A DNA stretch of 27,033 bases. It comes from a virus. Each line of letters opens with the position of its first letter. Positions within the stretch are counted from its first letter, which is position 1. Shown here piece by piece: positions 9,758 through 26,548 of this stretch. The notes under the pieces are model-generated. The model had not been told where the DNA came from, ran no database searches, and was given only the letters and a program-made list of their open reading frames with translations. The stretch lies in IMG/VR virus record IMGVR_UViG_3300017697_003622, positions 1-27,033 of that record; one strand, given 5' to 3'. The position numbers and the translations under genes are program-made.

Positions 9758-11201
9758 AATTTATCTTTTCTATATTATACGGGTAATTGGCCTCTTTGTA
9801 AAACTTTTTCCTTGCTCCCAGGTGTCTTTTCGCAAACTTGCAACTACTAGTAATATCCCAAATTTGTACATTATCCTTGTCTTCTGCTTTACGAATACCT
9901 CTTCCTATGCTCTGTATGACCCTTACAAAAGACTTACCAGGTTCAATAAGAACAAGATTGAATATCCTAGGAATATTGATACCAACACTAGCCACTCCAT
10001 ATGTGGCAATAATAATTTTATTTGTCGCTGTAGACACTTCATCGTATTGTTCCTTTCTGTCTGTGTTTTTAGTTGATCCAGATACGAAAACTGAATCTTC
10101 TAGTTGCTCTTGTAGTATTTCACCTGCAGATATTCTGTCTACAAGTATTAATGTGTTTCCTGATGAGGATATATCTTTGATGGTGCTAGCCACCCATTTC
10201 ATTCTGACTTTATCCGTAGTTAGCCATTTGAGTTCTTCTGCATATGTTTTGAACTGTGGATGATCCTGTGTCTGCAGAACATTCACATGACAGTTTGCCA
10301 ACACACCCTTGTCTTGCAATTCGCTTGCCTGTATTCTATTTGATACATCACCTATGCTACATTTCAAACCCATGAATTCATAATCCGCTTTTGGTACAGT
10401 ACCGGTTAGTCCCCAACGTATGCCACAATGTGCAAATGGTCCTGTTAGTAATCTTTTCAGTACATCCGCTTTGGCCATGTGCACCTCATCGATTATCACA
10501 GTGTTGATACCTTGTATTGCTTCCAAGAAATCTGTTGTGTGTTCGTCCTTGCTTTTTTTTTCTAACACATTTAGTGATTGCCATGTTGCTATCGTGTTGA
10601 ACCTGCCCAGTTCTTTCCTGTCACCGTAGTACACACCAACATCTAAGTTACAAGCAAGGAAGTCCTCTTCTGTCTGTGTCACAAGACTCTTGTTTGGAAC
10701 AATGGTCAGTGTACGACCATACGGTTCAACAAGTTGGCATAATGCCGCTGTAATGATTGTCTTGCCTGCTCCAGTGGCTATCTCTTGTATGCTTTGTGGA
10801 TGTTCTATGAACTTGTTAATTGTTTCCACTTGATAGTCTCTCAACACTATTGGCTGGCCTGCCGCTGGATGATTTTCTGGCCACATTATGTGTGATAGAT
10901 AATTTTTGTCTACTTGTTTGAATTCAAAGTTGTGTTGCTCTCTTTTATCCTCAACATCTATGTACACACCGCCCTCGTCTAGTATGGGAAGTATTTGGTC
11001 AACTAGGTTTAGATATGTGGTTCCTCCGAGTCCGAAGAAACTTACTTTGCCATCCCATCTACCTAACTTGACTGCTGGCAGATGTCTTGCATATGGTATC
11101 TCGTATTTGAATTTGTTTGATAATCTCTTGCGCCATTCGAGACTTAGGTTCTCAAACTTTACATTTACTTCATCTTTTATTACTAATTTACAACTGCTCA
11201 T
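9738..11201 (-). CDS. uvsW: UvsW-like SF2 helicase
   Basis: The 487-aa protein has the T4 UvsW length and layout. An N-terminal dsDNA-binding region (1-110) precedes the SF2 core: motif I ATGAGKT (142-148), motif II DEVH (238-241), motif III GLTGT (264-268), motif IV ILVDR, and motif VI QSIGRGIR (430-437). UvsW unwinds branched DNA and R-loops, switches T4 from origin- to recombination-dependent replication, and helps replication restart. All core residues are intact. It is preceded by the HARP-like gene with a 2-nt gap, under the sigma70-type promoter at 12612-12585. Confidence 0.94.
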   Translation of the reverse strand: MSSCKLVIKDEVNVKFENLSLEWRKRLSNKFKYEIPYARHLPAVKLGRWDGKVSFFGLGGTTYLNLVDQILPILDEGGVYIDVEDKREQHNFEFKQVDKNYLSHIMWPENHPAAGQPIVLRDYQVETINKFIEHPQSIQEIATGAGKTIITAALCQLVEPYGRTLTIVPNKSLVTQTEEDFLACNLDVGVYYGDRKELGRFNTIATWQSLNVLEKKSKDEHTTDFLEAIQGINTVIIDEVHMAKADVLKRLLTGPFAHCGIRWGLTGTVPKADYEFMGLKCSIGDVSNRIQASELQDKGVLANCHVNVLQTQDHPQFKTYAEELKWLTTDKVRMKWVASTIKDISSSGNTLILVDRISAGEILQEQLEDSVFVSGSTKNTDRKEQYDEVSTATNKIIIATYGVASVGINIPRIFNLVLIEPGKSFVRVIQSIGRGIRKAEDKDNVQIWDITSSCKFAKRHLGARKKFYKEANYPYNIEKINYENPYT

Positions 11202-12614: not shown

Positions 12615-13097
12615 ATGAAAAAAACAAGTAAAAAAACAGTTACAGCCCGGAAACAATTGAAGATCAGATTGGAAAATACTCTGACTAAAAGAAAAAATAT
12701 CCGAGGATTTAGGCCCTCACAATCTTTGATGGCGTCTTGGTTCAAGCATCTCAACCAAGGATTGTTTGAAAACAAGTTGCCTACTGTGCCGTTACATCTT
12801 ATAAGGATGACAGACGACTGGGGCAGATGCTGGGCACACTGGGATAACAGGAAATGCAGGAAAGGAACATACGACCAAAGTATTATTCCTTATGACAAAA
12901 CAGAAGTGACCTTTGCCATAGAATTACACACAAGGTATCCAACGTTCAAAGATTTTATTGATACCTTAGCACACGAGATGGTACATCTATACCAGATGAC
13001 CGTATTAAAAGATCCTTACAGCAACCATAACAAAAACTTTTATTCGTTCAGAAATAAGTTTAAAAGTGCCGGCTTGGATCTATCAAGAACTGGCTAA
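12615..13097 (+). CDS. SprT-like zinc metalloprotease
   Basis: The 160-aa protein has the gluzincin motif HEMVH (about 124-128, in LAHEMVHLYQ) in a helix, preceded by a SprT-like N-terminal region (SWFKHLNQGLFENKLP) and followed by a His/Asn stretch (NHNKNFYSFRNKF) that could give the third ligand. The domain is shared with SprT and Spartan, which in eukaryotes cleaves DNA-protein crosslinks; the phage role is unknown. The N-terminus is very basic (KKTSKKTVTARKQ), compatible with DNA binding. It is a single-gene plus-strand unit between two minus-strand operons, sharing a 64-nt divergent promoter region on its left and overlapping the convergent gene by 15 nt on its right. Confidence 0.85.
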   Translation: MKKTSKKTVTARKQLKIRLENTLTKRKNIRGFRPSQSLMASWFKHLNQGLFENKLPTVPLHLIRMTDDWGRCWAHWDNRKCRKGTYDQSIIPYDKTEVTFAIELHTRYPTFKDFIDTLAHEMVHLYQMTVLKDPYSNHNKNFYSFRNKFKSAGLDLSRTG

Positions 13098-13832
13098 CAC
13101 AGTATCTTCAAATTCTTTGTAAGTTATGATTTTAGAATTCCCATGATCAGTGCCTGTCTGCAGGTAGTTCATATACTCCGGAGGATCGTCATGTACTACG
13201 GTGTAGTTCACATAAGGCCTCATTTTCAGCATGTCTCGGAAATGTTTTAACCACCCCTCGAATATCTTGTCATCATTACGTTCACCATAGTTTTCCGTGC
13301 CTTGGTATATGTTATTCAGTTCTCCCTTGCCGTATTCTCTAAAGTCATAACCTATCAGGTATATGTTTTTGTGTCCGTGTACACCTGCTGTCCAGAACGC
13401 CGCGTTGCCTGATATCCAGTGTGGGTTATTGGGTATTAAGTTTATCATGCCCTTGCTCTGTTTCCTGTTCACTTCCAGCGCCGGCCCATAGTGTACGGTC
13501 TTCAACCCAACTGTGTCCTCCACCATCTTCATTGTCATCTTGGTATCTACGGAGAATATGAAGTCGGGCATAAAGTCTCTGTACAATGCATTACAACCAT
13601 ATGTCTGTCCTGTCGCTTTAAGTTTGTTGAGATTAAAATCTTTACGGGAAGGACCATTACCTATGCAGTAAGCATTACCTCGAGGAACTGCTTTGACCGT
13701 ATCCTCGAAAAATTTCATATCTCGTATGCGTTCGCCTTTCCTGATAGTCATGTTTATGCAAACTTCTTCTCCCTCATAGGGTTTCCATTTGATGGGTTCA
13801 ATTTCCTTCTTGCCGATGTTAATAGTTTGCAT
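13083..13832 (-). CDS. GT42 / DUF115-like putative glycosyltransferase
   Basis: The 249-aa protein has AYCIGNGPSRKDF (54-66), matching the GNGPS nucleotide-binding motif of GT42 sialyltransferases and of the DUF115 domain in flagellin glycosylation (Maf) proteins. CNALYRD and FIFSVD follow. Then come SGNAAFWTAGVHGHKNIYLIGYDF-type elements (about 141-164), equivalent to the GT42 segment that ends in a GxDF motif. This points to a CMP- or NDP-sugar transferase fold, but donor specificity cannot be assigned. It is the last gene of the leftward half of the glycan island, with a 1-nt stop/start overlap with the GT-B gene. A GGAGGAG sequence lies about 11 nt upstream of its ATG. Confidence 0.62.
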   Translation of the reverse strand: MQTINIGKKEIEPIKWKPYEGEEVCINMTIRKGERIRDMKFFEDTVKAVPRGNAYCIGNGPSRKDFNLNKLKATGQTYGCNALYRDFMPDFIFSVDTKMTMKMVEDTVGLKTVHYGPALEVNRKQSKGMINLIPNNPHWISGNAAFWTAGVHGHKNIYLIGYDFREYGKGELNNIYQGTENYGERNDDKIFEGWLKHFRDMLKMRPYVNYTVVHDDPPEYMNYLQTGTDHGNSKIITYKEFEDTVLASS

Positions 13833-14701
13833 TATAGATATTTCTCCTCCAGTCTCTTTTTAATTCTCTTCCATGGCAGTCCCTGCTCTATCTCGTCTTC
13901 AAACCATTCTGTGTATGCCAGTTTGTCTGCCCAGGTCAGTCTATTGGGCATGGCCGGTGTGTTTATATCTGTTAATTTTATGTTACCCACATCGTGGCAT
14001 AGGCTGGATTCAGATACGAACACAGGTATGCCCTTGATCACTGCCTCCATGGCCGGGTTGCTGGAATGATTTATTACTGCCCAGGTCCTCTCAAGTGTTG
14101 CTTTGAAATCTGTGTCATCGTATGTCCTGAAATCTCTTTTGGGCAATCTTACTTTAACATTTTTAAATTTGTCCTCTACAAATGATATCGTGTTACGAGG
14201 ATGTGGCCTTACTAAAATAGGTCTTGTAGTGTATTTTCGTATTTCCGTTATCTGTTCTTCTATCCACTGTGACATCCTTGGAAGTCCTTTCCACTGTTCG
14301 GATGCATCGTGCTGTCCGCAAATCACTATAAGGTCACCGGTGGGATTCCATGGTCGTAGCTCGTGTTTGAACAACGGCCACCGTTTATTGTCAAACCCCT
14401 GATTGGCAAAATCTGCATCTCTATTAATCCCATTGATTCCTATCTTGAAACTGAGGTTCCTACGTAGTCCTCCTACTTCCAGAACAATTACAGGCTTACC
14501 TTGACTCCTATATCTATCCCAGACACTTTTGTAATTCTGCATCCGACCCTTCCAAAGTACACTCCATATTACTGCTACGTCTCCGTTGGTCTCTTTATTA
14601 ATGATTACGTTATCTCCAGTCTTTTGGATTGATTCTATAAATTTTTTAAAGATCGGTTTACTGTTTTGTGGGCCATGCTCTGGCCATGCTTCTATCCTCA
14701 T
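13832..14701 (-). CDS. Capsule-type GT-B glycosyltransferase-like protein, paralog A1
   Basis: The 289-aa protein has the marks of capsule-synthesis (KpsS/KpsC-like) or CDP-glycerol-transferase-like GT-B proteins: VRPHPRN (RPHP 165-168), and NHSSNPAMEAVIKGIPVFV beginning at 211, the nucleotide-sugar-binding Ser/Glu region. The end has LTWADKLAYTEWFEDEIEQG followed by KRIKKRLEEKYL. Motifs, spacing and C-terminal wording match the gene at 18074-19057 closely (RPHP; HNSTASVDSCVRGIPTFV; TQWVHDIGYKLWSTDEIRNG), and more distantly those at 19047 and 21648. It probably transfers a sugar or polyol phosphate in the cytoplasm. It overlaps GT-A by 4 nt upstream. Confidence 0.72.
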   Translation of the reverse strand: MRIEAWPEHGPQNSKPIFKKFIESIQKTGDNVIINKETNGDVAVIWSVLWKGRMQNYKSVWDRYRSQGKPVIVLEVGGLRRNLSFKIGINGINRDADFANQGFDNKRWPLFKHELRPWNPTGDLIVICGQHDASEQWKGLPRMSQWIEEQITEIRKYTTRPILVRPHPRNTISFVEDKFKNVKVRLPKRDFRTYDDTDFKATLERTWAVINHSSNPAMEAVIKGIPVFVSESSLCHDVGNIKLTDINTPAMPNRLTWADKLAYTEWFEDEIEQGLPWKRIKKRLEEKYL

Positions 14702-15579
14702 AATGACGGTGGTACTTTCTTCCAGTAATCTACTGTAGGCTCTTTACGCAAATCATTTCGTGCTGACGTTCCGATTTTCTTACGTTTGCCTTTCATGTGG
14801 TCCATGTAATCACCAAGTTCACTATTAACAAACACATGGTGTCCTTTTACACCTTTCCAGTAACCTATATCGTTTACTTGTATGTTTTTTTCTTTTCTGT
14901 ATATTTTTGACAAATGCCAAAACACATACGAGTCGTGCCATTCCAACAATTTAAACACCTCGTCTGTAACATAAAGTTTTTCCCAGTCATTTACAAAGTT
15001 TTGTATCTCAGGATGTTTCATATTGTATCCAACGAATCCACATTCTGGATATTTGCCACCGTCGTTGAGGTTTGGATTTTCTCGACCTAGGTATGTCAAC
15101 ATTGTGTCTTGTGGTAGTAATTTTTCAAAGAAGTCCATAGGGGCGGGCCTAAACGAAAATGTGTCTCCGTCAATCCACACCACATAGTCATACTCTTTTG
15201 AATTACGCACAGCATTCACAACACAGAATACTTTGTTAGCAAATCTCACAGCGGCCCAGAGGAATGATCCTTTATTTTTGTCGTTGCCACCTTTGATTTG
15301 TAGTTCCGCCGGACGTCTAACGCCACCTTCGATTTCTTCTAACTCTCCGTTTGCAACAGGATCGTTTTTGTGTTTGTTCTTAAATTTGAATAATTCTGGC
15401 TCTGCAGTATTAAGGTCTATCCATTGTATTCTGTCATACTTGCATTCAGGTTTAGGTTCTTCTGCGTACACAACTATATCAACTTCTTTTGGAAATTGTT
15501 CAGCCATGGACTCGATACCTTTTTTGCCGTACTGTTCCCAACAGCCAGGCTTGTATGATGTGATAACTTTAATTTTCAT
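14698..15579 (-). CDS. GT-A glycosyltransferase with DGD metal site
   Basis: The 293-aa protein has an N-terminal nucleotide-binding half and a hydrophobic strand ending in WIDGDTF: DxD at Asp137-Asp139, the metal and nucleotide-sugar site of GT-A enzymes. A following ECGFVGYNMKHP and WHDSYVFWHL are typical of retaining GT8-like or related phage glycosyltransferases, where a conserved Gly-x-x-Gly strand and an Asp line the acceptor site. A Gly/Arg-rich segment (about 85-95) interrupts the domain. Donor unknown. It sits between the sulfotransferase (11-nt overlap) and GT-B paralog A1 (4-nt overlap), so sugar transfer and sulfation are likely coordinated. Confidence 0.78.
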   Translation of the reverse strand: MKIKVITSYKPGCWEQYGKKGIESMAEQFPKEVDIVVYAEEPKPECKYDRIQWIDLNTAEPELFKFKNKHKNDPVANGELEEIEGGVRRPAELQIKGGNDKNKGSFLWAAVRFANKVFCVVNAVRNSKEYDYVVWIDGDTFSFRPAPMDFFEKLLPQDTMLTYLGRENPNLNDGGKYPECGFVGYNMKHPEIQNFVNDWEKLYVTDEVFKLLEWHDSYVFWHLSKIYRKEKNIQVNDIGYWKGVKGHHVFVNSELGDYMDHMKGKRKKIGTSARNDLRKEPTVDYWKKVPPSL

Positions 15580-16351
15580 TTATTCTCTTATTTAAATCTT
15601 GCAGTCCTGGCCAGTTCAATAAAACATCTTGTTGTTCTTTTGGTAAATCAGCGATGTAGTTTGATCCGCCCCTTCTATAAAATTTTAATTCGTCTGGTGC
15701 TTCTTTGTTATTTTTTTCTTTCATTTTTTCCCAAGTAGTTTGTTCTTTTGCATATGCGAATGAATCTTTATCGCAATTTTTGAACACAAATGTTAAAAGT
15801 TTTTCCCAAGCACTATCTTCTTTTTTTAGGTCTTCATACTTGATAAACAACTTTCGACCTTGGTGTTGAGCCATGTGATCCAGTTGTAAGTTCATGAAGT
15901 TTATAATGATATCTAGTCCCCATTGTTTGTTTTTTGCAAAATCTATTATGTCTGTGTGTTGTGGACAAGTAAACTCTTTGTATGGTATGCTTTGCAAATA
16001 AGGCCAATAACTGAACAACACATCAAGCGGATCTCTCACAAGATATACAATGTTTTGTAATTTCATTTCAGGTTCGAAATAAAATTGTTTGCTGTCCTGC
16101 ATATTAAAATATTCGTCCCATGGTATGTGTCCGGTCATGCTCATGAAGTCATGTCTAAATAATATTTTAGGTATGCCAGGCATTCCAGGCCGAGGCCTAT
16201 CCACCCATTTGCTAAACGCAACGTTCCATTGTCTAGCAATATAGTGTGCAAAAAAATGTTTCATCCATGTACGACCGCAACGAGGAAAACTTAATATCAA
16301 GGTAGGACAGTTGTTATATTGGTTACGTAAAACGTTTATTCTATGATGCAT
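15569..16351 (-). CDS. PAPS-dependent sulfotransferase
   Basis: The 260-aa protein has the 5'-phosphosulfate loop SFPRCGRTWMK (21-31; consensus YPKSGTTW). A likely catalytic His67 lies in FRHDFM. The 3'-phosphate motif has Arg106 and Ser114 (VRDPLDVLFSYW) at the canonical spacing, and YRRGGSNY is near the C-terminus, like the RKG motif that contacts PAPS. The family moves sulfate from PAPS to hydroxyl or amino groups of sugars and small molecules. Within a glycosyltransferase island, a sulfated glycan product is likely. No PAPS-synthesising gene is visible, so PAPS would come from the host or genes outside the window. The start overlaps AsnB-like by 11 nt. Confidence 0.88.
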   Translation of the reverse strand: MHHRINVLRNQYNNCPTLILSFPRCGRTWMKHFFAHYIARQWNVAFSKWVDRPRPGMPGIPKILFRHDFMSMTGHIPWDEYFNMQDSKQFYFEPEMKLQNIVYLVRDPLDVLFSYWPYLQSIPYKEFTCPQHTDIIDFAKNKQWGLDIIINFMNLQLDHMAQHQGRKLFIKYEDLKKEDSAWEKLLTFVFKNCDKDSFAYAKEQTTWEKMKEKNNKEAPDELKFYRRGGSNYIADLPKEQQDVLLNWPGLQDLNKRINEN

Positions 16352-18074
16352 CTGTTACCTTGTATGTTTCTTTCCAATGTTTCAATATCAAATCTGGTAT
16401 AAGCATTTTAGCAGATTTTTGGCTAGAAGTCACTGTTTTCAATTTTTCGTGTCCTAACTCTTTGGTATAAAAGTCCTCAAGGTCTTTGTCCATTTTATTT
16501 GTAAGCCATAAGCCTACAGGAACAGTCCAGCCTGTTTTTGGTTTATGAATGATGTCATTTGGTAATATTTCGTTGTATGCTGATCTTATCATAATTTTAG
16601 TTTCTGATTGATTCAGTTTGTATTTTGTATGAATATTCAAACAGTATTGCATAAACGTTTTACTTGCCAATGGAAAACGTCCTTCCATGCTGTATGCCAT
16701 TCCATATGTATCGTTTCTGCTAAAAAATTCTGCAGGACATTGTGTGACACAGTCTAAAGCCATATATGAGCCAACAGGATCATCTGGATTCCACAACTTG
16801 TCTGAATAGCAACGCTCTAGTTCGTCTAGTAGTTGTTCGTCTGCAACAATATCTTTTGCAAAACTCTTAGGTCTTTTCAAACGTTGTAACCATAAAGTGA
16901 GTAACTCTCTCCAAGTTTTAGGAAGTACACCATAAAACATTTTTTGATATTTTGGGTATCCGCCTAATAATTCATCACCCATATCGCCTGCCATTGTAAC
17001 AACTATATCTTTGTCTGCCATAAATTTATTTGTATGACAATACATTGCCATACTAGGATTAAAGTTAACTTGTTCCATGTAATAAATGGATTGATCCCAT
17101 GCTGTCATATATTCTCTTGGTGTAATTACTACCTCGTGGTGTGTGTATCCTTCTCTGTCTGCTAAAACTTTTGCCGCATTGGCATCGCTGTTGTAGTCTT
17201 CATCTGCTGTTACTTCTGGGTGTATACGATTTGTAAATGTATTGATGTCTTGAACCTGGCCAAGTTCATATGCTACAACACTCGAGTCTAAACCTCCACT
17301 TAAGAATACACCTATTTTTCTTTGTCCAATAGCACATCGTTTTACAGTGTCGCTTATTTGTTTTCTAAATTCTTTTGGCTTAAATTTATTATTACTGTTA
17401 GGGATTATATAGATTCTTTTACTATCAATAAATTTTTTATCTTTCAAACAGTATACTAATGTTTCTCCAGGCAGTAGTTGTTTAATACCTGAGAATATAG
17501 AATTGCGTAATGGATTGCATCCTGTTCTACTTTGAAAACTTGCCGCTAGTTTGTCTAACTTTCTTGCACCCGGGACTACATCCAACATGCCTTTAACCTC
17601 AGAACCAAACACAAGACCTCTATCTATCTCAGCATAGTATAACGGTTTTATACCAGCATGATCTCTGCTTATGGTAATCCTGTCCTTGTCGACTTCGTAG
17701 TAGGCAAAGCCATGCATTGAATCTATCTCATCAATAAATGACAGGCCAAATTTGTCTAATCCCCATGCAAGTAGTTCTGTGTCACACCCTGTTGTATCTG
17801 TAAAGTCTTTATACTTTTCTTTTAGTTCGTAATAATTAAATATTTCACCGTTGTACACTAGGTGGTTATACTTGGGAGTTCTCCACGGCTGTCGTGAGTT
17901 TTTTGGTTCTGACATTATACTCAAAAGATTATGTCCTAAGGTAACACCGTTGCCTGACTCTTTGTTTACAATCTCAATTTTTAGGCCTCCATCTGGGCCT
18001 CTGTGTTTACAGAGATGCATGTAATCATTGATAAATTTTTGATCGGCCGCAGTTATACCGTATATGCCACACAT
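16341..18074 (-). CDS. asnB: Asparagine synthetase-like glutamine amidotransferase
   Basis: The 577-aa protein is full length for AsnB. Cys2 is the class II amidotransferase nucleophile. NGEIFN (75-80) and GCDTE (Asp98) are glutaminase-site residues. SGGLDSS (259-265) is the ATP PP-loop of the synthetase domain. One difference stands out: where family members have a HxRLS segment with an Arg holding the glutamine carboxylate, this protein reads HNLLS (48-52), so that Arg appears to be Leu. In glycan clusters AsnB-like enzymes often amidate uronic-acid sugars rather than aspartate. The island context supports that, but plain asparagine synthesis is not excluded. It overlaps GT-B A2 by 1 nt. 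Confidence 0.88.
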   Translation of the reverse strand: MCGIYGITAADQKFINDYMHLCKHRGPDGGLKIEIVNKESGNGVTLGHNLLSIMSEPKNSRQPWRTPKYNHLVYNGEIFNYYELKEKYKDFTDTTGCDTELLAWGLDKFGLSFIDEIDSMHGFAYYEVDKDRITISRDHAGIKPLYYAEIDRGLVFGSEVKGMLDVVPGARKLDKLAASFQSRTGCNPLRNSIFSGIKQLLPGETLVYCLKDKKFIDSKRIYIIPNSNNKFKPKEFRKQISDTVKRCAIGQRKIGVFLSGGLDSSVVAYELGQVQDINTFTNRIHPEVTADEDYNSDANAAKVLADREGYTHHEVVITPREYMTAWDQSIYYMEQVNFNPSMAMYCHTNKFMADKDIVVTMAGDMGDELLGGYPKYQKMFYGVLPKTWRELLTLWLQRLKRPKSFAKDIVADEQLLDELERCYSDKLWNPDDPVGSYMALDCVTQCPAEFFSRNDTYGMAYSMEGRFPLASKTFMQYCLNIHTKYKLNQSETKIMIRSAYNEILPNDIIHKPKTGWTVPVGLWLTNKMDKDLEDFYTKELGHEKLKTVTSSQKSAKMLIPDLILKHWKETYKVTDAS

Positions 18075-19057
18075 TACAATCCCAACCTTTCTTTGAATCT
18101 TTTGAACACTACACCATTACGTATCTCGTCGGTGCTCCACAGTTTATATCCTATGTCATGAACCCATTGTGTCCTGTCTGGACGGTCGGGTGTTTCTATA
18201 CTGTTTAGATTTTTATTTGCTACTGGCCAACAAAGTGCAAGATCTGAGGTAACAAAGGTAGGGATTCCACGAACGCAGGAATCGACACTGGCAGTAGAAT
18301 TGTGAGTAACAAAAGCATGGCAATTACTTAATGCTTCTTGGAAGTTGAATCTATAGTACTTTTTCTCATCTCCCACAAAGTGTGCAGGTCCTTCTAACAG
18401 TTCACAGTCCTCTGGAAACTCTTCTTTTCTGTTTATCATTTGTGCCATATGGTTTGGGTGTGGACGTATTAAAAATTTACGATCAGTGATAGGTCTTAAT
18501 TTTTCATACACACCATGAAACCAATCGATCGGATCAAGTTCGTCCATGCTCCAGTTGTCTTTAGGCTGTAATCCAAACAGTATAGGATCGTTTTGATCCG
18601 ACTTACGCCATGGCTCATACTTTATGTTCCATAAGTCTTTCATCATATCCCAACGATCATTTGGACTGTTGTCGCTTAAAAAGTTTCCGTTGTTCATGGG
18701 AGAATATAAACTTACTCGCCAATGATGTTTAGGGTGTGTGATTGTATTGCCAAAACTAGACAGTATGCCACCGTCGAATGTAATAATGTAAATGCCTTTT
18801 TTCTTTGCACGTTCCACAAGGTCTCGCCTACGTCCTTTAGTATGGTGTGGTTGGTTCTTCCCTCCGTAGCCAAACATACATCCTATCGGTGCGGTTGGTT
18901 CCATCTCGTCCTGTCGCCATTCACCAGTTAATTTCTCATTGACCATTATTGGTTCATCGCCACATGCTTTTATGCCTTCGGCCATGTGTTGTAGTAGTTG
19001 AAAACTTGCTCCTTGTTTCCGGTCTTTCACAGTCCTTCTAAATATTTCAACTTTCAT
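18074..19057 (-). CDS. Capsule-type GT-B glycosyltransferase-like protein, paralog A2
   Basis: The 327-aa protein has RPHP (198-201) and THNSTASVDSCVRGIPTF beginning at 251, then a C-terminal block of WVHDIGYKLWSTDEIRNG and FKRFKERLGL. This block matches paralog A1 (13832-14701) position by position. The N-terminal third includes Gly-rich FGYGGKNQP and FDGGILSSFG loops, as expected for a GT-B first domain. The family includes KpsS/KpsC-like capsule enzymes. It is sandwiched between AsnB-like (1-nt overlap) and paralog B1 (11-nt overlap). Expected role: sugar transfer during assembly of the island's glycan. Substrate is not readable. Confidence 0.72.
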   Translation of the reverse strand: MKVEIFRRTVKDRKQGASFQLLQHMAEGIKACGDEPIMVNEKLTGEWRQDEMEPTAPIGCMFGYGGKNQPHHTKGRRRDLVERAKKKGIYIITFDGGILSSFGNTITHPKHHWRVSLYSPMNNGNFLSDNSPNDRWDMMKDLWNIKYEPWRKSDQNDPILFGLQPKDNWSMDELDPIDWFHGVYEKLRPITDRKFLIRPHPNHMAQMINRKEEFPEDCELLEGPAHFVGDEKKYYRFNFQEALSNCHAFVTHNSTASVDSCVRGIPTFVTSDLALCWPVANKNLNSIETPDRPDRTQWVHDIGYKLWSTDEIRNGVVFKRFKERLGL

Positions 19058-19862
19058 CTAATATCCTTAATGCTGTACCATCACTCATTTCATTTGATGT
19101 AAATTGACCATATGCTAAACTATAAAACAACGGTCTAGGGTCTTCGTATACAGGTTGTTCAATACGAGCTAGACTCTTACCTGCAATAGGGAACGCACAA
19201 TTATTACTATCAGCAAATACAGGTACACCACTTGCTAATGCTTTAATTGTAATAGAACTGTTGTTGGTTACAACAGCGTGTAGGTCATTCCAGTCGATTT
19301 TTTCTTTTGGTGTCTTGTTACTGTTTTCTCCTGTGTGGATTTTTCCATCCGCACCTATTTGTGCTTCTGGGTTATAGGGTTTCTCTCTTACAACTATTTC
19401 TCTATCAGTATATTTCCTTAATTCAGTTAGTGTGTTTTCTAGCCAGTTCTCACACTTAAAGAAAGTACTAATAGAATTTGTTGGTGGACAAACTAATATT
19501 TTCCTACCGTTCTTGTGATAAGGCTTTATGTCATACGGAAACGTTGCTTTGAATCTATCATCCGGACGTTCGTCAATAAAGTTTTTGACATGGTCATTTT
19601 TAACTATCCTTAAGAAATAAGGTTGTTGCCTGCTGATGCCCCAATACGGTCTATCCATGTAGTAAAAATCTATATTATTTTTTTGGCAATATTCATACAC
19701 TAAATTTGTTCCTCTTAATATTCCAAAGAGCCAGATTTTTGTTGCATCTGTTTTTGCTAATACCTGTTCGTAAGGTAGTATCTGTGATCCCGGAAGTCCT
19801 TCATGTGCAAACTGTATGTACTTTTCAGTCACTTGTCTAGAAGTTTTACTTAGGTATATCAT
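19047..19862 (-). CDS. GT-B glycosyltransferase-like protein, paralog B1
   Basis: This shorter protein (271 aa) is related to A1 and A2 but of another subfamily. It has FYYMDRPYWG (66-75) in the N-terminal half, VREKPYN (158-164) where A-type members carry RPHP, and TNNSSITIKALASGVPVFA beginning at 199. It ends in FYSLAYGQFTSNEMSDGTA, the same layout as the gene at 21648-22460 (WFTDTPYFG; RHKPRG; TSCSIAAVEAICEGIPVFC; LYSLAYQQFTPEEIENGTA). Loss of RPHP in both may mean a different acceptor or donor. Divergent members of the same GT-B fold are the simplest reading. It is coupled to GT61 by a 1-nt overlap. Confidence 0.7.
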   Translation of the reverse strand: MIYLSKTSRQVTEKYIQFAHEGLPGSQILPYEQVLAKTDATKIWLFGILRGTNLVYEYCQKNNIDFYYMDRPYWGISRQQPYFLRIVKNDHVKNFIDERPDDRFKATFPYDIKPYHKNGRKILVCPPTNSISTFFKCENWLENTLTELRKYTDREIVVREKPYNPEAQIGADGKIHTGENSNKTPKEKIDWNDLHAVVTNNSSITIKALASGVPVFADSNNCAFPIAGKSLARIEQPVYEDPRPLFYSLAYGQFTSNEMSDGTALRILDES

Positions 19863-20944
19863 TAGTCTATGTGTTTCATCAAGTCTGCAATATCAATTTT
19901 AAAATTAATAAGATCTGTCAGTCTCTTTATGCCTTTTGGTTTTTTATCTTTTTCTAGAGGAATAGGTACAGTATCTGTGAGATATAATTTATGTTCCAGA
20001 CCTAAGTGATGAGATAACACAGGATAAACTTTCTTATGTATCATTTTAGGATCTTGTATTTCTATCACTTTTGTTCCCGGGGTGCACCATAATAAATTTA
20101 CTAGGCCTGCACCGTGTGCCGCAACAATGTGTGTGGCCTCAGCAAACGTTTTCATTTGTTCTCGTATGGTCATCTTTGCTAGGTCTACAGTCTCCCATCC
20201 TTTCAATGCTAACAATAATTCGTCTGAGTTTGTGATCCTTCTCGTTTTCGCGCCTGGACGTAGCACAACTATTTTTCTATGAGGCTTCACGTCTTTCAAC
20301 TCCGGACGACCTTTGAAATGTCTTAACCATGGAGCAAGGTGCGGAGTAATCACTCCGTCTTTTGAATTACTTGCACTTGGAACTAATAGATGTTTAAATT
20401 GCCATGTTTCGTTTTTTGGCATCACAAGAACTTTAACTTCGGGAAAGAGTTCTTTGATACATTTTTCTAAATATTTACTCTCATTGGCCAACACATAACA
20501 ATACTTTGTAAAGTCTGTAGACCATCTCTTTTCTATTAATCTAAATTTTGATATTACATCAATCCATATATGCCATGGATTGCCTACACTGTCCTCATCT
20601 ATAGGTAACCATACATAGTGATATTTCTCATGGAAGTGATTGCTGACCCGTGGTAGATCAACATCTACATTGTCACCCCAATCACTCCACAGACCGTGTG
20701 CCTTCTGAGGTTTAAATTTACTTTTATGAGTTAGTCCCCAGATGTAACTGGTAATTAGTTTGTTGTGCATGGTCGCAAGTAGTGGACAACTATGAACTCT
20801 ACAATCATGAAATTCAGCAACAAATGTTGGTAAACTTGTGAAATGTGCATCAACATCTTTGTGATACGGTACTGTGTAATCGTAACTGGTGTCCACAGTT
20901 TCCCATTTATCCAGGAAGTATTTGATTGAATCTATGTTCTTCAT
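19862..20944 (-). CDS. GT61 (DUF563)-type glycosyltransferase
   Basis: The 360-aa protein carries the GT61 hallmark in its C-terminal half: VLRPGAKTRRITNSDELL (227-244), then THIVAAHGAGLVNLLWCTPG (271-290) with the conserved AHGAGL(V/T)N, and KVIEI. In other organisms GT61 members transfer xylose or other sugars in N-glycan and polysaccharide synthesis, and bacterial members occur in capsule clusters. The N-terminal half is Trp/His-rich and unassigned. It is the first gene of the leftward half of the island, starting 39 nt from the divergent SGNH gene. A weak minus-strand promoter (TTGGTA-16-TATAGT) precedes it. Confidence 0.85.
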   Translation of the reverse strand: MKNIDSIKYFLDKWETVDTSYDYTVPYHKDVDAHFTSLPTFVAEFHDCRVHSCPLLATMHNKLITSYIWGLTHKSKFKPQKAHGLWSDWGDNVDVDLPRVSNHFHEKYHYVWLPIDEDSVGNPWHIWIDVISKFRLIEKRWSTDFTKYCYVLANESKYLEKCIKELFPEVKVLVMPKNETWQFKHLLVPSASNSKDGVITPHLAPWLRHFKGRPELKDVKPHRKIVVLRPGAKTRRITNSDELLLALKGWETVDLAKMTIREQMKTFAEATHIVAAHGAGLVNLLWCTPGTKVIEIQDPKMIHKKVYPVLSHHLGLEHKLYLTDTVPIPLEKDKKPKGIKRLTDLINFKIDIADLMKHID

Positions 20945-20945
20945 G

Positions 20946-20974
20946 TTGCTATTTGCCTATAATTATACTATAAT
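20946..20974 (+). promoter_or_regulatory. Candidate divergent promoter region driving both halves of the glycan island
   Basis: In the 39-nt gap 20945-20983, the plus strand reads TTGCTA, 17 nt, TATAAT (20969-20974), aimed at the SGNH gene ATG at 20984 with almost no leader. The minus strand has a weaker TTGGTA-16-TATAGT and a TATAAT at 20967-20962 toward the GT61 gene. The opposing promoters overlap, so the two arms may compete or be co-regulated. Confidence 0.5.
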
Positions 20975-20983
20975 TATTGAGCT

Positions 20984-21673
20984 ATGCCTACCAAACTATT
21001 CATTAATGGATGTTCGTTCCTAACATACAGACCTAAAGACAATGTGAACACCCACTGTGGTCTCGAATTGGCGAAACTTTTAGACTATGCCGTTGAAGTA
21101 AATTTAGCCAATGGCGGAAGAGGGTCGAAAAGATTGATGTGGACCACTAGAGTTTGGTGTGAGAAATTTCCAGACCTTGCGGAAAAATGTTTTTTCCTTA
21201 TTGGATCTAGTGGCGGAAATAGGTTCGACTACCCAACATCTGATGGGTACAAGGCACACAAATTTCCTACAATGAAGACAACTTGGAAAACATGGGATCC
21301 AAACAGAGACAAACACACAACTAGTTTTGTAAAATATCTTTTCAGTCTAGGGGCAGACCTAGACCAAATGACACAAGTTGAATCTATATTAGGCCTATTA
21401 GATCTACAAGACTATTTTGAAAATAAAAAATTTCCTTATGTGTTTTACAATACACTGTCAGATAACAAAATAGAAAATCCAGATATACAATTACTATTTG
21501 ATAAAATTAAAAAAGAAAGATTTTTCAAACCAGAAACTAGTCATTTGGATTACACAGTTGCAAACAATCAGCAGTGCAAACCAAATGATCCACATCCTAA
21601 CGAAGAAGGTCATAAGCAATGGGCTAAACAATTACACGAATTTATAAATGTTAACAATTTACTCACCAACTAA
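20984..21673 (+). CDS. SGNH-hydrolase-like protein
   Basis: The 229-aa protein has SGNH block I as FINGCSF with nucleophile Ser11, a block II Gly loop GGRGSK (44-49), a Gly/Asn block III-like LIGSSGGN, and block V DPHPNEEGH with Asp202 and His204. The family contains esterases and O-acetyl transferases or deacetylases acting on glycans. Beside glycosyltransferases, trimming or adding acyl groups on a sugar is a plausible role. The order of catalytic blocks is complete, so activity is likely; substrate unknown. No signal peptide is visible, so it acts in the cytoplasm. It is the first gene of the rightward half of the island and overlaps the next by 26 nt. Confidence 0.75.
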   Translation: MPTKLFINGCSFLTYRPKDNVNTHCGLELAKLLDYAVEVNLANGGRGSKRLMWTTRVWCEKFPDLAEKCFFLIGSSGGNRFDYPTSDGYKAHKFPTMKTTWKTWDPNRDKHTTSFVKYLFSLGADLDQMTQVESILGLLDLQDYFENKKFPYVFYNTLSDNKIENPDIQLLFDKIKKERFFKPETSHLDYTVANNQQCKPNDPHPNEEGHKQWAKQLHEFINVNNLLTN

Positions 21674-22460
21674 TAATCCAAATAGCAAGGCCTGGGAAGT
21701 TTTCAATGGGGTTGACAAGTCCTGGCCTGATCAGATTACAAAGTTAAACAACGCAGTAGAAACAGATCCAGTCCCCAATTCAATGTTCTGGGGATTCGTT
21801 GGCAACAACAGGGAAATGGTCAAGAAACTAGAAGCACGTAATCACAACTACTGGTTCACTGACACTCCATATTTTGGCAGGTTTGACAACACAAATCTAA
21901 AACCAGATAATCACTACTGGCGAATATGTAAGAATGCTATACACGTGCCGTACATCAAAGGATGCAAGTCAGATAGATTTGAAAAGTTTGGAATGAACAT
22001 AAAGGCACCAAACTTCGCCGGCAAATATGTTTTAGTGTGTCCTAGCAGTGCAGGAATACACAGTTACTTGGACAGACCTAATTGGACAAACGAGACTGTA
22101 GAACAGATCAAGAGATACACAGACAGACCAATCAGACTTCGACACAAGCCTAGGGGCAGGGGTACGTCAGGACCGAGTGAGGCAAAGGTACCCCTATCCG
22201 AGGACCTCAAGGAGGCTTGGTGTGTTGTCACCAGTTGTTCTATCGCGGCAGTGGAGGCAATATGTGAAGGTATACCTGTGTTTTGTGATGACAAAAGTTT
22301 TGCAGTTGACGTGGGGAATGTTGAACTGTCAGACATTGAAAATCCCTACTACGGTGGCCCGGAGCCTTGGTTATATAGTTTGGCCTATCAACAGTTCACA
22401 CCAGAAGAGATTGAAAACGGTACAGCAGTAGAGATATTGATGGACAAAGGAATACTATGA
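21648..22460 (+). CDS. GT-B glycosyltransferase-like protein, paralog B2
   Basis: The 270-aa protein is the closest relative of the gene at 19047-19862. It has YWFTDTPYFG (68-77), LRHKPRG (164-170), TSCSIAAVEA (195-204) followed by GIPVFC, and the ending LYSLAYQQFTPEEIENGTA. In A1 and A2 the middle motif is RPHP; here it is HKP, as in B1. Two B-type copies therefore lie on opposite sides of the divergent promoter. The start at 21648 overlaps the SGNH 3' end. An upstream TTATAA makes the ATG resemble a late-promoter box, but this is AT-rich coincidence. It is coupled to the methyltransferase by an ATGA overlap. Confidence 0.72.
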   Translation: MLTIYSPTNNPNSKAWEVFNGVDKSWPDQITKLNNAVETDPVPNSMFWGFVGNNREMVKKLEARNHNYWFTDTPYFGRFDNTNLKPDNHYWRICKNAIHVPYIKGCKSDRFEKFGMNIKAPNFAGKYVLVCPSSAGIHSYLDRPNWTNETVEQIKRYTDRPIRLRHKPRGRGTSGPSEAKVPLSEDLKEAWCVVTSCSIAAVEAICEGIPVFCDDKSFAVDVGNVELSDIENPYYGGPEPWLYSLAYQQFTPEEIENGTAVEILMDKGIL

Positions 22461-23083
22461 ATATAGAAAAGGTAAACAATTTTTGGGTTCCTAGCAACGA
22501 CATACACATAGAAGAATGGAAGTCTGGCAAACCTTTTACTCAAAATAAATGTTTGAACAAATTTTTAAAGTACTGTCAAATACAGAGTAAAAAAATGAAA
22601 ACTGTAATAGATGTAGGTGCATGGTGCGGTACATGGGCAAAAGCAATCGAGCCTTATGCTAGGAAAGTGATTGCATTTGAGCCTGACCAAACACATTTTA
22701 CATGTTTACAACGTAATTGTACTATTAATTGTGATCCGAGAATGGAAGCAGTTGGATCAGAAATAAAAAATATTTCGTTGACCGATGATGACTTCACCCA
22801 GGCAAAAAGGATAGACAAACAAGGTAGCATAAGGATGACTACTTTGGACCATATGAATTATCTAGATGTAGACATGATAAAGATTGATGTAGAAGGATAT
22901 GAAATGGAAGTACTTAAAGGTGCAACAAAAACCTTAGAGGGCATTGATTATCTAATGATAGAATTAAACAACAATACAAAAAAATACGGTAGTAGTAATG
23001 TTGAAATTGAAAAATACATAAGTTCGTTAGGATTCAAGGTGCTCATGGAACACTGGCCGGACAAAGTTTTCTACCGTGCATAA
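22457..23083 (+). CDS. FkbM-family methyltransferase
   Basis: The 208-aa protein has the SAM-binding motif I VIDVGAWCGTW (50-60) and a second strand-end FEPDQTH (acidic residue for the SAM ribose). The FkbM hallmark IKIDVEGYEMEVLKG lies near 141-155, followed by DYLMIELN. FkbM enzymes O-methylate hydroxyls in antibiotics, glycolipids and polysaccharides. In the island it would cap or decorate a sugar by O-methylation. It starts with an ATGA overlap after GT-B B2 and is followed 19 nt later by the epimerase gene. No odd residues noted. Confidence 0.87.
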   Translation: MNIEKVNNFWVPSNDIHIEEWKSGKPFTQNKCLNKFLKYCQIQSKKMKTVIDVGAWCGTWAKAIEPYARKVIAFEPDQTHFTCLQRNCTINCDPRMEAVGSEIKNISLTDDDFTQAKRIDKQGSIRMTTLDHMNYLDVDMIKIDVEGYEMEVLKGATKTLEGIDYLMIELNNNTKKYGSSNVEIEKYISSLGFKVLMEHWPDKVFYRA

Positions 23084-23102
23084 CTGAAATTAAATACTCT
23101 GA

Positions 23103-24107
23103 ATGAAAATTTTTATAACAGGCGTCGCAGGTTTTTTAGGTTCACACCTAGCAGACTTAATGATCGCCCAAGGCCATAAAGTTGCTGGCAATGACAACAT
23201 GATCGGCGGGTATGCAGATAATGTGCCACAAGGTGTAGAGTTTCATCAGGTAGATTGTTGTGATTTAGAAAACTTAACCAAAGCAATGGAAGGCTGTGAC
23301 ATTGTGTATCACACCGCCGCCACTGCTTACGAAGGACTGTCTGTTTTTTCTCCTGTGCTTGTCACAAGGAATATATTTGAAGCGTCAGTTACAACTATTA
23401 CAGCGGCAATAAGAAACAACGTAAAACGTATAGTGTACTGTTCAAGCATGGCAAGATATGGCCATCATGATAAAATGCCATACAGAGAAGATTACGAATG
23501 CCGTCCTCAAGATCCATATGGTATTGCTAAAAAAGCCGGTGAGGATGTTCTAAAAAATTTATGTGAAACACACGGAGTTGAGTATGTGATTGCTGTTCCA
23601 CACAACATAGTTGGCCCAAGACAGAAGTATGACGATCCATTTAGGAACGTTATGTCCATTATGCTTAACAGAATGTTACAAGGAAAACAACCTATCATAT
23701 ACGGCGACGGCGAGCAACAGAGATGTTTTAGTTACATTGATGACTGTTTGTATTGTCTAAACGCTCTTGCTTTTCAAGAAGACGTAGTTGGGGAAGTTGT
23801 CAACATTGGCCCTGATGAGGAATCTTGCACAATCAATGATTTAGCCGAAATGTGTGCCAACGAAACAGGACTAAATTTAGATGTGTTATATCATAAGGAT
23901 AGACCACAAGAAGTCAAGATCGCAGTTTGTTCATCAGACAAAGCAAGAAAGTTATTAGGTTATAAAACGTCTACAAATGTAAGACAATCGGTGCAAAAAA
24001 CTGCCGAGTATATCAGGACTAGAGGAACAAAGAAGTTTCAATACCATTTGCCTTTAGAAATTGTAAACGATAAAACACCAGACACCTGGAAGAATAAATT
24101 GATATGA
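23103..24107 (+). CDS. NAD-dependent epimerase/dehydratase (extended SDR)
   Basis: The 334-aa protein has the Rossmann motif GVAGFLGS (7-14), catalytic SSMARYG (114-120) and YGIAK (Tyr139, Lys143), and FSYIDD and VVNIGPDE further on, as in UDP-glucose 4-epimerase and related NDP-sugar enzymes. A C-terminal extension of about 25 residues follows the last conserved block. It interconverts or modifies an NDP-sugar; the exact substrate (4-epimerase, dehydratase or decarboxylase) is not readable. With the nucleotidyltransferase at 2537-3274 it could supply a modified donor. Its stop overlaps the GT-A copy 2 start by 4 nt. Confidence 0.9.
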   Translation: MKIFITGVAGFLGSHLADLMIAQGHKVAGNDNMIGGYADNVPQGVEFHQVDCCDLENLTKAMEGCDIVYHTAATAYEGLSVFSPVLVTRNIFEASVTTITAAIRNNVKRIVYCSSMARYGHHDKMPYREDYECRPQDPYGIAKKAGEDVLKNLCETHGVEYVIAVPHNIVGPRQKYDDPFRNVMSIMLNRMLQGKQPIIYGDGEQQRCFSYIDDCLYCLNALAFQEDVVGEVVNIGPDEESCTINDLAEMCANETGLNLDVLYHKDRPQEVKIAVCSSDKARKLLGYKTSTNVRQSVQKTAEYIRTRGTKKFQYHLPLEIVNDKTPDTWKNKLI

Positions 24108-24817
24108 TATCGTTTTGTTGCCCATCTAGGGGCAGGCCAAAACTTGCTAAAAGACTTGTAGATACCGCTATCAGTACACAAAAAGGAGACACAGAATTTT
24201 TGTTTTACCTCAACGAAGATGATGAGAAATTAGAAGAATACAAAGACTTGTTAGACGAAAAACATTATACAGTTGGGCCAAATCAATCAACTTGTTACAG
24301 TTGGAATTTAATGTGCGATAAAGCATCACATGACGTAGTAATGCTAATGGGTGATGATGTGCAAGTAAAAACAAAGGACTGGGATCAACTGATTACAGAC
24401 GAAATTAACAGGTACGATGACAAGATATTAATGGTTGTACCTTCTGATGGCAAACCAAAAAACAAACATTTAGGCAATGAACCTATGCTGTGGCCAGATG
24501 AAAAATTACCTGCGGCACATTTTGCTGTTCATAAAAATTGGACAAACACATTAGGTTACCTTGCTCCGGTTTTCTTTTGGCACTGGCATGTTGATTCTTA
24601 CACACAAAAAGTTGCACGGAAACTAAACAGGTGCATGTACATACCCACAGTAGAATTCAAAACGAAAAAAATACTAGACGATGATGCTGGCAAACAGATA
24701 CGAAAAAATTTAAATATCGCTCAAAGAGATGAATTTGTTTGGACAAAGGTAAGATCTAGACATATGCTCGGAGATGTTACAGCATTAAAAAACTTTATTG
24801 AATCACGAACTGAATAA
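24104..24817 (+). CDS. GT-A fold glycosyltransferase-like protein (GT2-like), copy 2
   Basis: The 237-aa protein is a paralog of the gene at 625-1326: PSRGRP (7-12), YLNEDDE (35-41), VGPNQSTCYSW, MGDD with acidic Asp84-Asp85, KDWDQ, and FFWHWHVDSY (157-166). The GDD here is a better match to the DxD metal site than the GDE of copy 1. GT2-like sugar transfer is the likely activity. It is the last gene of the rightward half, overlapping the epimerase start region by 4 nt and the convergent GT8-like gene by 15 nt at the 3' ends. Confidence 0.75.
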   Translation: MISFCCPSRGRPKLAKRLVDTAISTQKGDTEFLFYLNEDDEKLEEYKDLLDEKHYTVGPNQSTCYSWNLMCDKASHDVVMLMGDDVQVKTKDWDQLITDEINRYDDKILMVVPSDGKPKNKHLGNEPMLWPDEKLPAAHFAVHKNWTNTLGYLAPVFFWHWHVDSYTQKVARKLNRCMYIPTVEFKTKKILDDDAGKQIRKNLNIAQRDEFVWTKVRSRHMLGDVTALKNFIESRTE

Positions 24818-25477
24818 ATTTATAAGTTCTTTTTTCCAGTCATCGCTATACTCACAATCTCGGTAACCATCAAACCATGGGCCACCTTCTGTGTAGTGTA
24901 ATATTTTTGGTGTGCCGTTTCTTGGTTCTTTGTACCAACCTACTAACCAATTATATTCTAAAGGTAATGATCCTATTTCGTTATCATCTAGCCAACTGAA
25001 CCTGTGCAGGAACTTTGGTGATTCTTCATTGAGAAGTTCTGGTGTTAATATTTTGTTTTTTGGATGTTCACAGTTCCACAAAACCATGCTTGACCAGTTC
25101 TTCCTGGGATATGATGTTTGCACCTGTCCATCCATTTTTGTTGTCTCTTTTGGAGTGTAGTCGTGTTGTACTACAACAACTGCTTTCGAGTTATCACAAT
25201 ATTTCACGAGCTCGTGGCTTGGTATCTTCCAAAGGAAATCACAGTCACAGAACACTGCCCACCCTTTGAAATCATTCATGTAAGGCACGAAGAATCTAGT
25301 GAACGTGAATTCAGTTGATGCCAACTTGTCCACTGGCCTAGTGTAAAGTCCTTGATCTCGCATCTGTTTTTGCTTTAGGGGAATAACTTCTGCTGATGCA
25401 TCTCTACGCTTGATACTATGCTCACACACTTGGTATGCTATATCTTCTCTGCTGTCATGCCCTACGTAAATTTTCAT
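24803..25477 (-). CDS. GT8-like glycosyltransferase (start at 25477)
   Basis: An in-frame ATG 36 nt upstream exists, but the ATG at 25477 gives the 4-nt ATGA overlap with the HAD gene seen elsewhere here. It also starts the protein at the expected beta-strand (MKIYVGHDSRE). The 224-aa product has AVFCDCD with Asp78-x-Asp80 as the metal site, TEFTFTRFFVP upstream as in GT8 LPS galactosyl/glucosyltransferases, then SSMVLWNCEHP and LHYTEGGPWFDGY (the GT8 H-x-x-G-x-KPW-like end). Likely role: sugar transfer to a lipid- or protein-linked acceptor. It closes the island on the right. Confidence 0.8.
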   Translation of the reverse strand: MKIYVGHDSREDIAYQVCEHSIKRRDASAEVIPLKQKQMRDQGLYTRPVDKLASTEFTFTRFFVPYMNDFKGWAVFCDCDFLWKIPSHELVKYCDNSKAVVVVQHDYTPKETTKMDGQVQTSYPRKNWSSMVLWNCEHPKNKILTPELLNEESPKFLHRFSWLDDNEIGSLPLEYNWLVGWYKEPRNGTPKILHYTEGGPWFDGYRDCEYSDDWKKELINLFSS

Positions 25478-26103
25478 TTTCTTCCTGAGACTATTTGGTG
25501 TATGTCTTTCCAATTACTTACACGGATAATGTCAGGATGATTAAAGTCTTGATTATATGGTTGGCTCATTAATATAGGCTTTAAACCGTATTTGAGCCCG
25601 GCTACAGCGTTGGCAGGCTTGTCCTCGACCCAATACAGTCCGGTATTGTGGAACTCCGCTAATGCACTGTCTTTGTCTGCTCCTGTGCCCAGTATATGGT
25701 AATTTGTGAACACATGATCACCAAACAGTTCGCCCAATCTTCGTTTACGTAATTCCTGTGCCGGTATGTCTGATGTTTGAGATGTTATTGGTATGAATGT
25801 CCAACCCTCTGCCGCTAACAGTTTTACCCATGTCTGTGATTCCAACATTGGACGCTGTGTGCCCATCCATGCACTCCTATTAAACTCTCTTATACATATT
25901 CTTATTTCGTTTTTTGTTAATCCAAATCTTTCTTCCATCCAATATGTGTTTTGTTTGTCTGGTAGTAGTCTATAAGGGTGATATCTTGCACCTCTCTCAT
26001 CAAACAGTGTTTTTTGTAACATCCATTTTGTGAAATGGTATTCCCATTCCAACAGCACACCGTCTACATCTGTGAGTATTATTCTATTATTTGATATCGG
26101 CAT
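25474..26103 (-). CDS. HAD-superfamily phosphatase-like protein, copy 2
   Basis: The 209-aa protein has TDVDGVLLEW with Asp12 and Asp14, motif II PITSQ, a Lys-containing KDSALAEF, and motif IV YWVEDKPANA. The end SNWKDIHQI and the SQPYNQDF segment match the HAD protein at 1993-2556, so they are paralogs. Here too the HAD gene is directly followed by a glycosyltransferase gene. Substrate is unknown; a sugar phosphate or nucleotide phosphate is likely. The start overlaps the UvsY-like gene by 17 nt. It contains a longer cap (residues about 25-75) than copy 1. Confidence 0.8.
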   Translation of the reverse strand: MPISNNRIILTDVDGVLLEWEYHFTKWMLQKTLFDERGARYHPYRLLPDKQNTYWMEERFGLTKNEIRICIREFNRSAWMGTQRPMLESQTWVKLLAAEGWTFIPITSQTSDIPAQELRKRRLGELFGDHVFTNYHILGTGADKDSALAEFHNTGLYWVEDKPANAVAGLKYGLKPILMSQPYNQDFNHPDIIRVSNWKDIHQIVSGRK

Positions 26104-26548
26104 CTTCCATTCCTGCTACTCTCAATTTAACAATGTTTGTTATCTGCCATTGTTTTTGATCTAAACCTTTGGTGATGCCTAACCATTGATTCCTTATCAA
26201 TGCAAAGTCATTTATAATTTTATCCATGTCAACGACATCGTCTTCACCGTCCACATACTTCTCTGCATCTCTACTTGATAACGCTCTGTTATAATTTTCT
26301 AGGTATTTTCTGAAGGTCTTTGATCTTAACCTTCGTAATTCTATGTTTAGATATTCTAGTATTGCTTCTAATTGTTGTAGTTGACTGAATCTTTCTTCGA
26401 CTATTCCAGGTAATGATGCACTAGCTCTTTCCAGATTACCGTATATCTTGCACTGCTTTTTGGCTTCTAGTAATTCCTTATCAAAGTATGCTACACAGTC
26501 TGGTATCTTGTCTAGGTTCCTGCTAACTTCGTTGTACCAGTTTATCAT
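26087..26548 (-). CDS. UvsY-like recombination mediator candidate / conserved helical protein
   Basis: The 153-aa protein is all helical with a coiled-coil-like centre (EERFSQLQQLEAILEYLNIE) and a second half reading YLENYNRAL, KYVDGEDDVVDM, GLDQKQWQI and VKLRVAGMED. The last part resembles the T4 UvsY C-terminal region (a D-V pair, LD.I..R...I, then R...AG). UvsY loads the UvsX recombinase on gp32-coated ssDNA. The gene lies two genes downstream of a UvsX/RecA-like C-terminus, which supports the idea. UvsY of T4 is 137 aa. The similarity is judged by eye and is weak, so a conserved phage protein of unknown role is the fallback. Confidence 0.45.
   Translation of the reverse strand: MINWYNEVSRNLDKIPDCVAYFDKELLEAKKQCKIYGNLERASASLPGIVEERFSQLQQLEAILEYLNIELRRLRSKTFRKYLENYNRALSSRDAEKYVDGEDDVVDMDKIINDFALIRNQWLGITKGLDQKQWQITNIVKLRVAGMEDADIK

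Follow-up and report, generated by a model that had tools for sequence, protein, structure and literature searches.

Chloroviruses and some mycobacteriophages build oligosaccharides on virion proteins. In pelagimyophages, glycan genes are found in a hypervariable region, and a change of the O-chain and avoidance of superinfection are proposed in the report on them (PMC7029224). Phage glycan genes are usually reported as miscellaneous cargo, whereas the recurrent syntenic locus described here separates a variable from a fixed part. The locus is an island at positions 13083-25477 of the 27,033-base IMG/VR virus record IMGVR_UViG_3300017697_003622, and this whole stretch is called the window. The new finding is a fixed core of glycosyltransferase (GT) genes with a slot for a sulfotransferase or an AsnB-like amidotransferase, a sulfate/amide slot that is exchanged between near-identical phages; literature searches for such a core, slot and exchange brought up no description. 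We give about an even chance to the reading that this is a serotype-like glycan locus, borne by the phage, which remodels the surface glycan of the host early and relies on the host for export.

A pattern search of IMG/VR with the second of four GT-B paralogues (GT-B2) matched 112 stretches, of which 110 encode a relative; 80 loci (L001-L080; 69-96% identity) were retained. Searching with the sulfotransferase returned three loci, of which only L083 was new, for a total of 81. Forty-five of the 81 span the region from the 24803-like gene to SprT, with those two end genes and GT-B2 present by selection. All 45 spanning loci hold the four GT-Bs, the GT-A of 14698-15579 and the GT42-like gene, and seven genes persist in order in every one of them (nine genes were compared, two of which are the selected end genes). 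Since this core recurs in 45/45 spanning loci, the grouping, first pointed out in an earlier note on this DNA, is not a matter of chance. Among the records of isolates (50,697), GT-B2 matches two, at 24 and 31%, AsnB matches 13, at 31% or less, and the sulfotransferase matches none.

The slot varies within this constant frame. In the 70 loci reaching the GT42-like gene it holds AsnB alone in 45, the sulfotransferase alone in 17, both in two and neither in six; counting only the 52 loci with distinct GT-B2, the figures are 33, 12, two and five. The gene order GT-B2, slot, (GT-A,) GT-B1, GT42-like is kept in 51 loci, and GT-A is placed before GT-B2 in 14 AsnB-type loci. The earlier note had named a sulfated glycan as the product; the sulfotransferase is indeed in the window, but it is not constant, the slot being often AsnB in relatives. 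Exchange was followed in 159 pairs, not independent of one another, whose UvsW is 95-99.9% identical; they were drawn from 54 loci and the window, and slot content differs in 63 of them. Median identity in these pairs is 53% for GT-B3, 56% for FkbM, 61% for the SGNH-like protein, 76% for GT-A, 79% for the GT42-like protein, 80% for GT61, 84% for GT-B2, 85% for GT-B1, 87% for GT-B4 and 94% for both the epimerase and the 24803 protein. The neighbouring gp59-like, 9254 and 8604 proteins have medians of 92-95%, and the core neighbour 11204 is also variable (82%). An internally deleted AsnB, with the first codons and the last 47 codons in frame, lies at L011:10984-11151, on a single contig (L011 = L081) in which an assembly artefact is possible. 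The extra proteins of other islands include GDP-mannose dehydratase, Sulfotransfer_2, LicD, radical SAM and a second FkbM, and a scan of 10 members of the accessory clusters, four of which gave no match, places radical SAM and ferredoxin-like proteins among the variable open reading frames (ORFs).

The earlier note had described fourteen consecutive genes in two divergent operons. All 14 ORFs are present and fill 13083-25477, nearly all of them overlapping or sitting within 40 bases of each other. Eight on the minus strand (13083-20944: GT42-like, GT-B1, GT-A, sulfotransferase, AsnB, GT-B2, GT-B3, GT61) diverge from five on the plus strand (20984-24817: SGNH-like, GT-B4, FkbM, epimerase, GT paralogue) across a 39-base gap, but the fourteenth (24803-25477, minus strand) joins 25474-26103 and 26087-26548 in a third unit; a TTG start would lengthen this ORF to 25513. 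The flanks are phage genes for a UvsW-like helicase, a SprT-like protein, a primase and a replicative helicase, with the gp59-like, 9254, 8604 and 11204 genes also nearby, and the island is located between uvsW/sprT and the structural genes.

Pfam matches were graded as above or below family cut-offs, and profile searches were also made against PHROG, TIGRFAM and solved structures. Together with two structure predictions they leave the enzyme set mostly as the earlier note had it, with GT61, sulfotransferase, AsnB, FkbM and epimerase all above their Pfam cut-offs. The claim of at least eight GTs holds for seven by family, profile, fold or GT-B paralogy (one GT-B being modelled) and for an eighth by PHROG; a ninth is unproven. 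The GT61 protein (19862-20944, minus; 44/45 loci) matches PF04577 at 3.8e-24, with 85.9 bits against a cut-off of 27. The GT42/DUF115-like putative transferase (13083-13832, minus; 45/45) reaches the CstII sialyltransferases through its family profile at 2.7e-5, over residues 57-87 (31 residues) only, and the Pfam MptE-like family at 0.0064, below cut-off. GT-A (14698-15579, minus; 45/45) had no match in a Pfam search, and its AlphaFold2 model (pLDDT, the predicted local distance difference test, 88) suggests a retaining-type fold of the GT6/PBCV-1 A64R group. GT6 fills the top Foldseek rows (5e-8), VIA gives Z 13.5 for BoGT6a and equally for PBCV-1 A64R, and the model is close to several GT-A families (GT6, GlyE, glycogenin and LgtC, Z 12-13.5).

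The four GT-Bs are mutually similar, with 13 invariant columns across 32 sequences, and DUF6716 matches two of them at 0.0028 and 0.034, both below cut-off. GT-B2 (18074-19057, minus), the query for related loci, was modelled with AlphaFold2 (pLDDT 86). Foldseek lists KpsC or KrkA in its first nine rows (KpsC 5e-8), and in VIA the top 15 places go to WbbB, KpsC and KrkA at Z 13.5-14.6, with the next row at 11.1. The model thus places its nearest solved folds among the KpsC/KrkA/WbbB transferases of Kdo (3-deoxy-D-manno-octulosonic acid), the KpsC/WbbB type of which we take to be GT99/GT107, but identity is 9-14% and no sequence-profile match accompanies the fold. GT-B1 (13832-14701, minus; 45/45), homologous to the modelled GT-B2, keeps RPHP and has a Q-H-D motif in the window. 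GT-B3 (19047-19862, minus; 45/45), strongly divergent between phages, and GT-B4 (21648-22460, plus; 45/45) are assigned by similarity among the GT-Bs. At the aligned motif GT-B2 has Q-P-K/S-D in 8/8 sequences and GT-B1 has Q-H-D in 5/8; since GT-B3 and GT-B4 lack the Q..D motif of GT-B2 (16/16 sequences), the donors of the four may differ.

The putative GT at 24104-24817 (plus; 20/45), a paralogue of 625-1326 (34% identical), matches PHROG 14945 'glycosyltransferase' at 5.6e-27 and Glycos_transf_2 at 0.0051, below cut-off. The possible GT-A at 24803-25477 (45/45 by selection) has a DxD-like CDCD, and its GT label is an unproven guess from this motif; it matches PHROG 28018, a function-unnamed family, at 6.8e-57, with no Pfam match and no solved relative. 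Profile comparison of either protein against the GT-A of 14698 gave no relation. Sequence-profile searches of solved structures brought nothing convincing for GT-B2, GT-A 14698, 24803, the SGNH-like protein or the combined GT-Bs.

Among the tailoring and sugar-supply genes, the sulfotransferase (15569-16351, minus; PF00685 1e-11, 45.2 bits against a cut-off of 22; 17/45) occupies the swappable slot and carries SFPRCGRTW at residue 21 and RDPLDVLFSYW at residue 106, which we take to be the two motifs binding PAPS (3'-phosphoadenosine-5'-phosphosulfate). The AsnB-like glutamine amidotransferase, also of the slot (16341-18074, minus; PF00733, Asn_synthase, 4e-52; 27/45), begins with MCGIYG, scores 280.9 bits with TIGR01536 against a cut-off of 267.1, and combines an N-terminal Cys glutaminase with a synthetase domain, as in the AsnB type. 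The SGNH hydrolase of the earlier note is better termed an SGNH-like protein, putatively an acyl esterase or transferase (20984-21673, plus; 42/45): NGCSF, GGRG, S11, D202 and H204 are invariant, but its match to PF19547 (DUF6071; 3.2e-5, 24.1 bits) falls below the cut-off of 27. The FkbM methyltransferase (22457-23083, plus; 35/45) matches PF05050 at 1.3e-12, above cut-off, and TIGR01444 at 3.7e-19. The NAD-dependent nucleotide-sugar epimerase/dehydratase (23103-24107, plus; 20/45) matches PF01370 at 6.6e-48, above cut-off, many SDR families below cut-off, and many solved epimerases.

The divergent promoter region (20945-20983, on neither strand in particular; 39 bases) has a TATAAT-type sequence, conserved in an alignment of 40/49 regions; TATAAT occurs in 56/69 divergent gaps, as against 16% in shuffles. 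The sequence TATAAATA, presumably the T4 late promoter core, occurs only 4 times in the 575,597 bases of 45 islands, each time preceding an accessory gene, and stands upstream of a nearby non-island gene in 9/13 loci. The 196,581-base contig of locus L076 (G001; possibly incomplete), from a larger relative, holds terminase, tail tube and baseplate genes, with the island at about 10-28 kb. There TATAAATA occurs 9 times, 7 of them within 60 bases before a start and one before the tail-tube gene; same-letter permutations average 3.8 and reach 12. These motifs lean towards early expression of the island.

If the island remodels the host surface, its soluble enzymes would act inside the infected cell. 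The GTs would extend a host acceptor at the inner membrane face, either a lipo-oligosaccharide core or a lipid-linked capsule or O-chain intermediate, and the tailoring enzymes would put sulfate, amide, methyl or other groups on the glycan. The altered glycan would be exported by host exporters and could change the receptor, so that competing phages would be excluded or evaded, and recombination between close relatives would swap tailoring genes and transferase alleles. This proposal draws on the fixed core with its variable slot, on slot and allele exchange in pairs with near-identical UvsW and on the AsnB deletion in one contig. It draws also on the Kdo-transferase folds predicted for GT-B2, which point to bacterial surface glycans, on the SAR11 homologues nearest to the epimerase, and on TATAAT in the divergent gaps together with the scarcity of TATAAATA in islands. 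GT61, GT42-like and AsnB-type enzymes typically occur in clusters for envelope glycans, and since relatives encode an outer-membrane porin, envelope remodelling fits.

Several points weigh against host-surface remodelling. No phage export machinery accompanies the island, so export by the host, like the acceptor, is an assumption. The promoter argument depends on consensus motifs: TATAAATA is distinctive by its proportion near starts, not by its count, as other permutations reach 7-12, and promoter-like matches over the whole region number 47 against 45.9 expected, no excess. A terminator scan of the region likewise gave no excess (11 against 9.0 expected). The flanks of the cellular epimerase loci share only the epimerase and, in 10/80, a weak GT61 match (one of the ten being the phage contig L102). 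Finally, porin and transporter genes were tried as pointers to a SAR11 host, and neither singles out SAR11: the porin had no match in three SAR11 genomes and weak matches in 17/398 genomes across the phylum (best 4e-10), and TctA matched at 22-28% in 24/41 genomes of the SAR11 family, with a best match of 29% in the class (99/289).

A coat on the virus particle is less likely than one on the infected cell, and we hold it as a minority view. Here the soluble enzymes would work in the cytoplasm, building a decorated oligosaccharide directly on proteins of the capsid or tail, and allele swapping would reflect selection on the particle surface. The earlier note had seen no flippase, polymerase or polyprenyl transferase in the 27 kb, and this absence now extends to the larger relative. 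When its 215 ORFs were scanned for hydropathy, no membrane protein resembled a flippase or a polymerase; the highest number of segments was 4, in a single protein, a Vut_1 transporter, where TctA proteins of other contigs, as positive control, give 9-10 segments; none of the window proteins is polytopic. A Gtr-type serotype conversion set (GtrA flippase, GtrB, membrane Gtr) was thus not found in the window or the 196-kb contig, nor a complete Wzx/Wzy cluster (flippase, polymerase, polyprenyl transferase) by the hydropathy scan of the latter. The absence of membrane proteins fits virion glycosylation equally well, but lipo-oligosaccharide cores likewise need no phage flippase. The GT-A model ties with PBCV-1 A64R, a structure titled as capsid glycosylation (Z 13.5), but the tie extends to several GT-A families and does not single out a capsid role. 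In the 196-kb relative the tail/baseplate region is followed by a further sugar operon (carbamoyltransferase, SDR, DegT aminotransferase, Gfo/Idh oxidoreductase), and another GT42-like gene lies in the structural half. Against these stand the TATAAT-type divergent promoter and the near absence of TATAAATA from islands. That recombination switches one class of glycan position on virion proteins from sulfate to amide or back, so that the particle itself is serotyped and would be the first sulfated phage particle, is an improbable extension.

It is distinctly unlikely that the genes have a mixed or supply role, with several of them providing sugars or small molecules for purposes that have nothing in common, and are grouped only because the site tolerates insertions. 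The varying accessory ORFs, radical SAM and ferredoxin-like proteins among them, speak for it, but the seven core genes keep their order in all spanning loci (the two selected end genes being among the nine compared) and the annotated accessory genes are largely glycan enzymes. Hypermodification of DNA, in which the transferases would glycosylate modified bases and which the earlier note had listed through a DNA acceptor, has a precedent in phage GTs (cited in PMC12619734) but is very improbable here, as the sulfotransferase, AsnB, FkbM and SGNH-like proteins are better suited to polysaccharide and the sequences disfavour the 5-hydroxymethylcytosine route of T4-style glucosylation, PF00303 (thymidylate synthase/hydroxymethylase family) being unmatched in 5/5 contigs, all possibly incomplete (control: positive in 9/14 genomes).

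The phage is T4-like, as the earlier note had it, only in a broad sense. Among the matches listed, the replicative helicase is closest to the PA5oct/Paride jumbo phages (50-54% over 86-96%), the terminase of a relative together with the helicase lies at 50-56% to the same phages, and no pelagimyophage appears. The epimerase has 79 SAR11 proteins among the 80 cellular matches kept of 115 relatives (59-64% identity); the scan used exact peptide patterns, so that the SAR11 bias may be partly methodical. A contig in a metagenome-assembled genome titled Verrucomicrobia bacterium TMED56 (L102) carries the phage island with a 91% identical epimerase and is probably a misbinned phage contig. We take TMED in its title as marine, and from this and the SAR11 relation the phages, which are large, are probably marine. 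The published moraphage lineage was also considered; no test favoured it, and the main text on it (PMC12619734) mentions neither sulfotransferase nor PA5oct nor epimerase.

Outside the island, a satellite slot (625-3274, minus; family searches) holds the GT paralogue 625-1326, a nucleoside phosphorylase, a HAD protein and a sugar-nucleotidyltransferase-like protein, the last (2537-3274) matching nucleotidyltransferases only in general terms. This second variable glycan slot has the porin on one side and the replicative helicase on the other; relative L099 has the identical four-gene set, and relative L100 has GT42-like, FkbM-like and radical-SAM-like genes there. The C-terminal part of the outer-membrane porin occupies window 1-520, and the complete gene, with a signal peptide, is at L100:12192-13130 (Porin_1 1.7e-9; 75% identical to the window part). 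At 3841-6392 L100 also encodes a TctA-type transporter (PF01970 7.1e-64) followed by a TctC-like protein with no Pfam match, and relative L098 has two TctA-like polytopic proteins (4482-5813 and 8543-9922). In the 196-kb relative, a 4,579-residue protein (87534-101273) follows the baseplate genes, several radical-SAM/SPASM-like proteins are encoded (L089-L092; two of those scanned matched), and the Vut_1 transporter has a phosphoribosyltransferase and a QueE-like protein in its vicinity.

Taken as a whole, the earlier interpretation is partly supported, and the island itself is confirmed. If the coat is that of the host, phages would carry their own surface serotypes, and the surfaces of abundant bacteria could change under competition among phages. 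If the coat is on the virion, phage proteins would bear sulfated or amidated glycans, for which literature searches yielded no report. The sulfotransferase/amidotransferase swap offers a chemical marker by which the two could be distinguished. The Gtr/Oac modules of serotype-converting phages are similar as phage genes altering the host surface glycan, but they are membrane proteins, unlike those of the window. To our knowledge, neither sulfation nor amidation is known in the virion glycosylation of chloroviruses and mycobacteriophages. These systems share with the island virus-encoded soluble GTs, for mycobacteriophages according to PMC12619734. The island is comparable to the hypervariable glycan region of the pelagimyophages, and phage glycan loci as such are already known. 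The pelagimyophage host recognition cluster likewise lies in a hypervariable region of large T4-related phages and has many GTs (PMC7029224). It differs in that the word sulfotransferase is absent from the main text of that paper, and in that the present phages are nearest to PA5oct/Paride and combine a fixed core with one defined slot whose genes are swapped.

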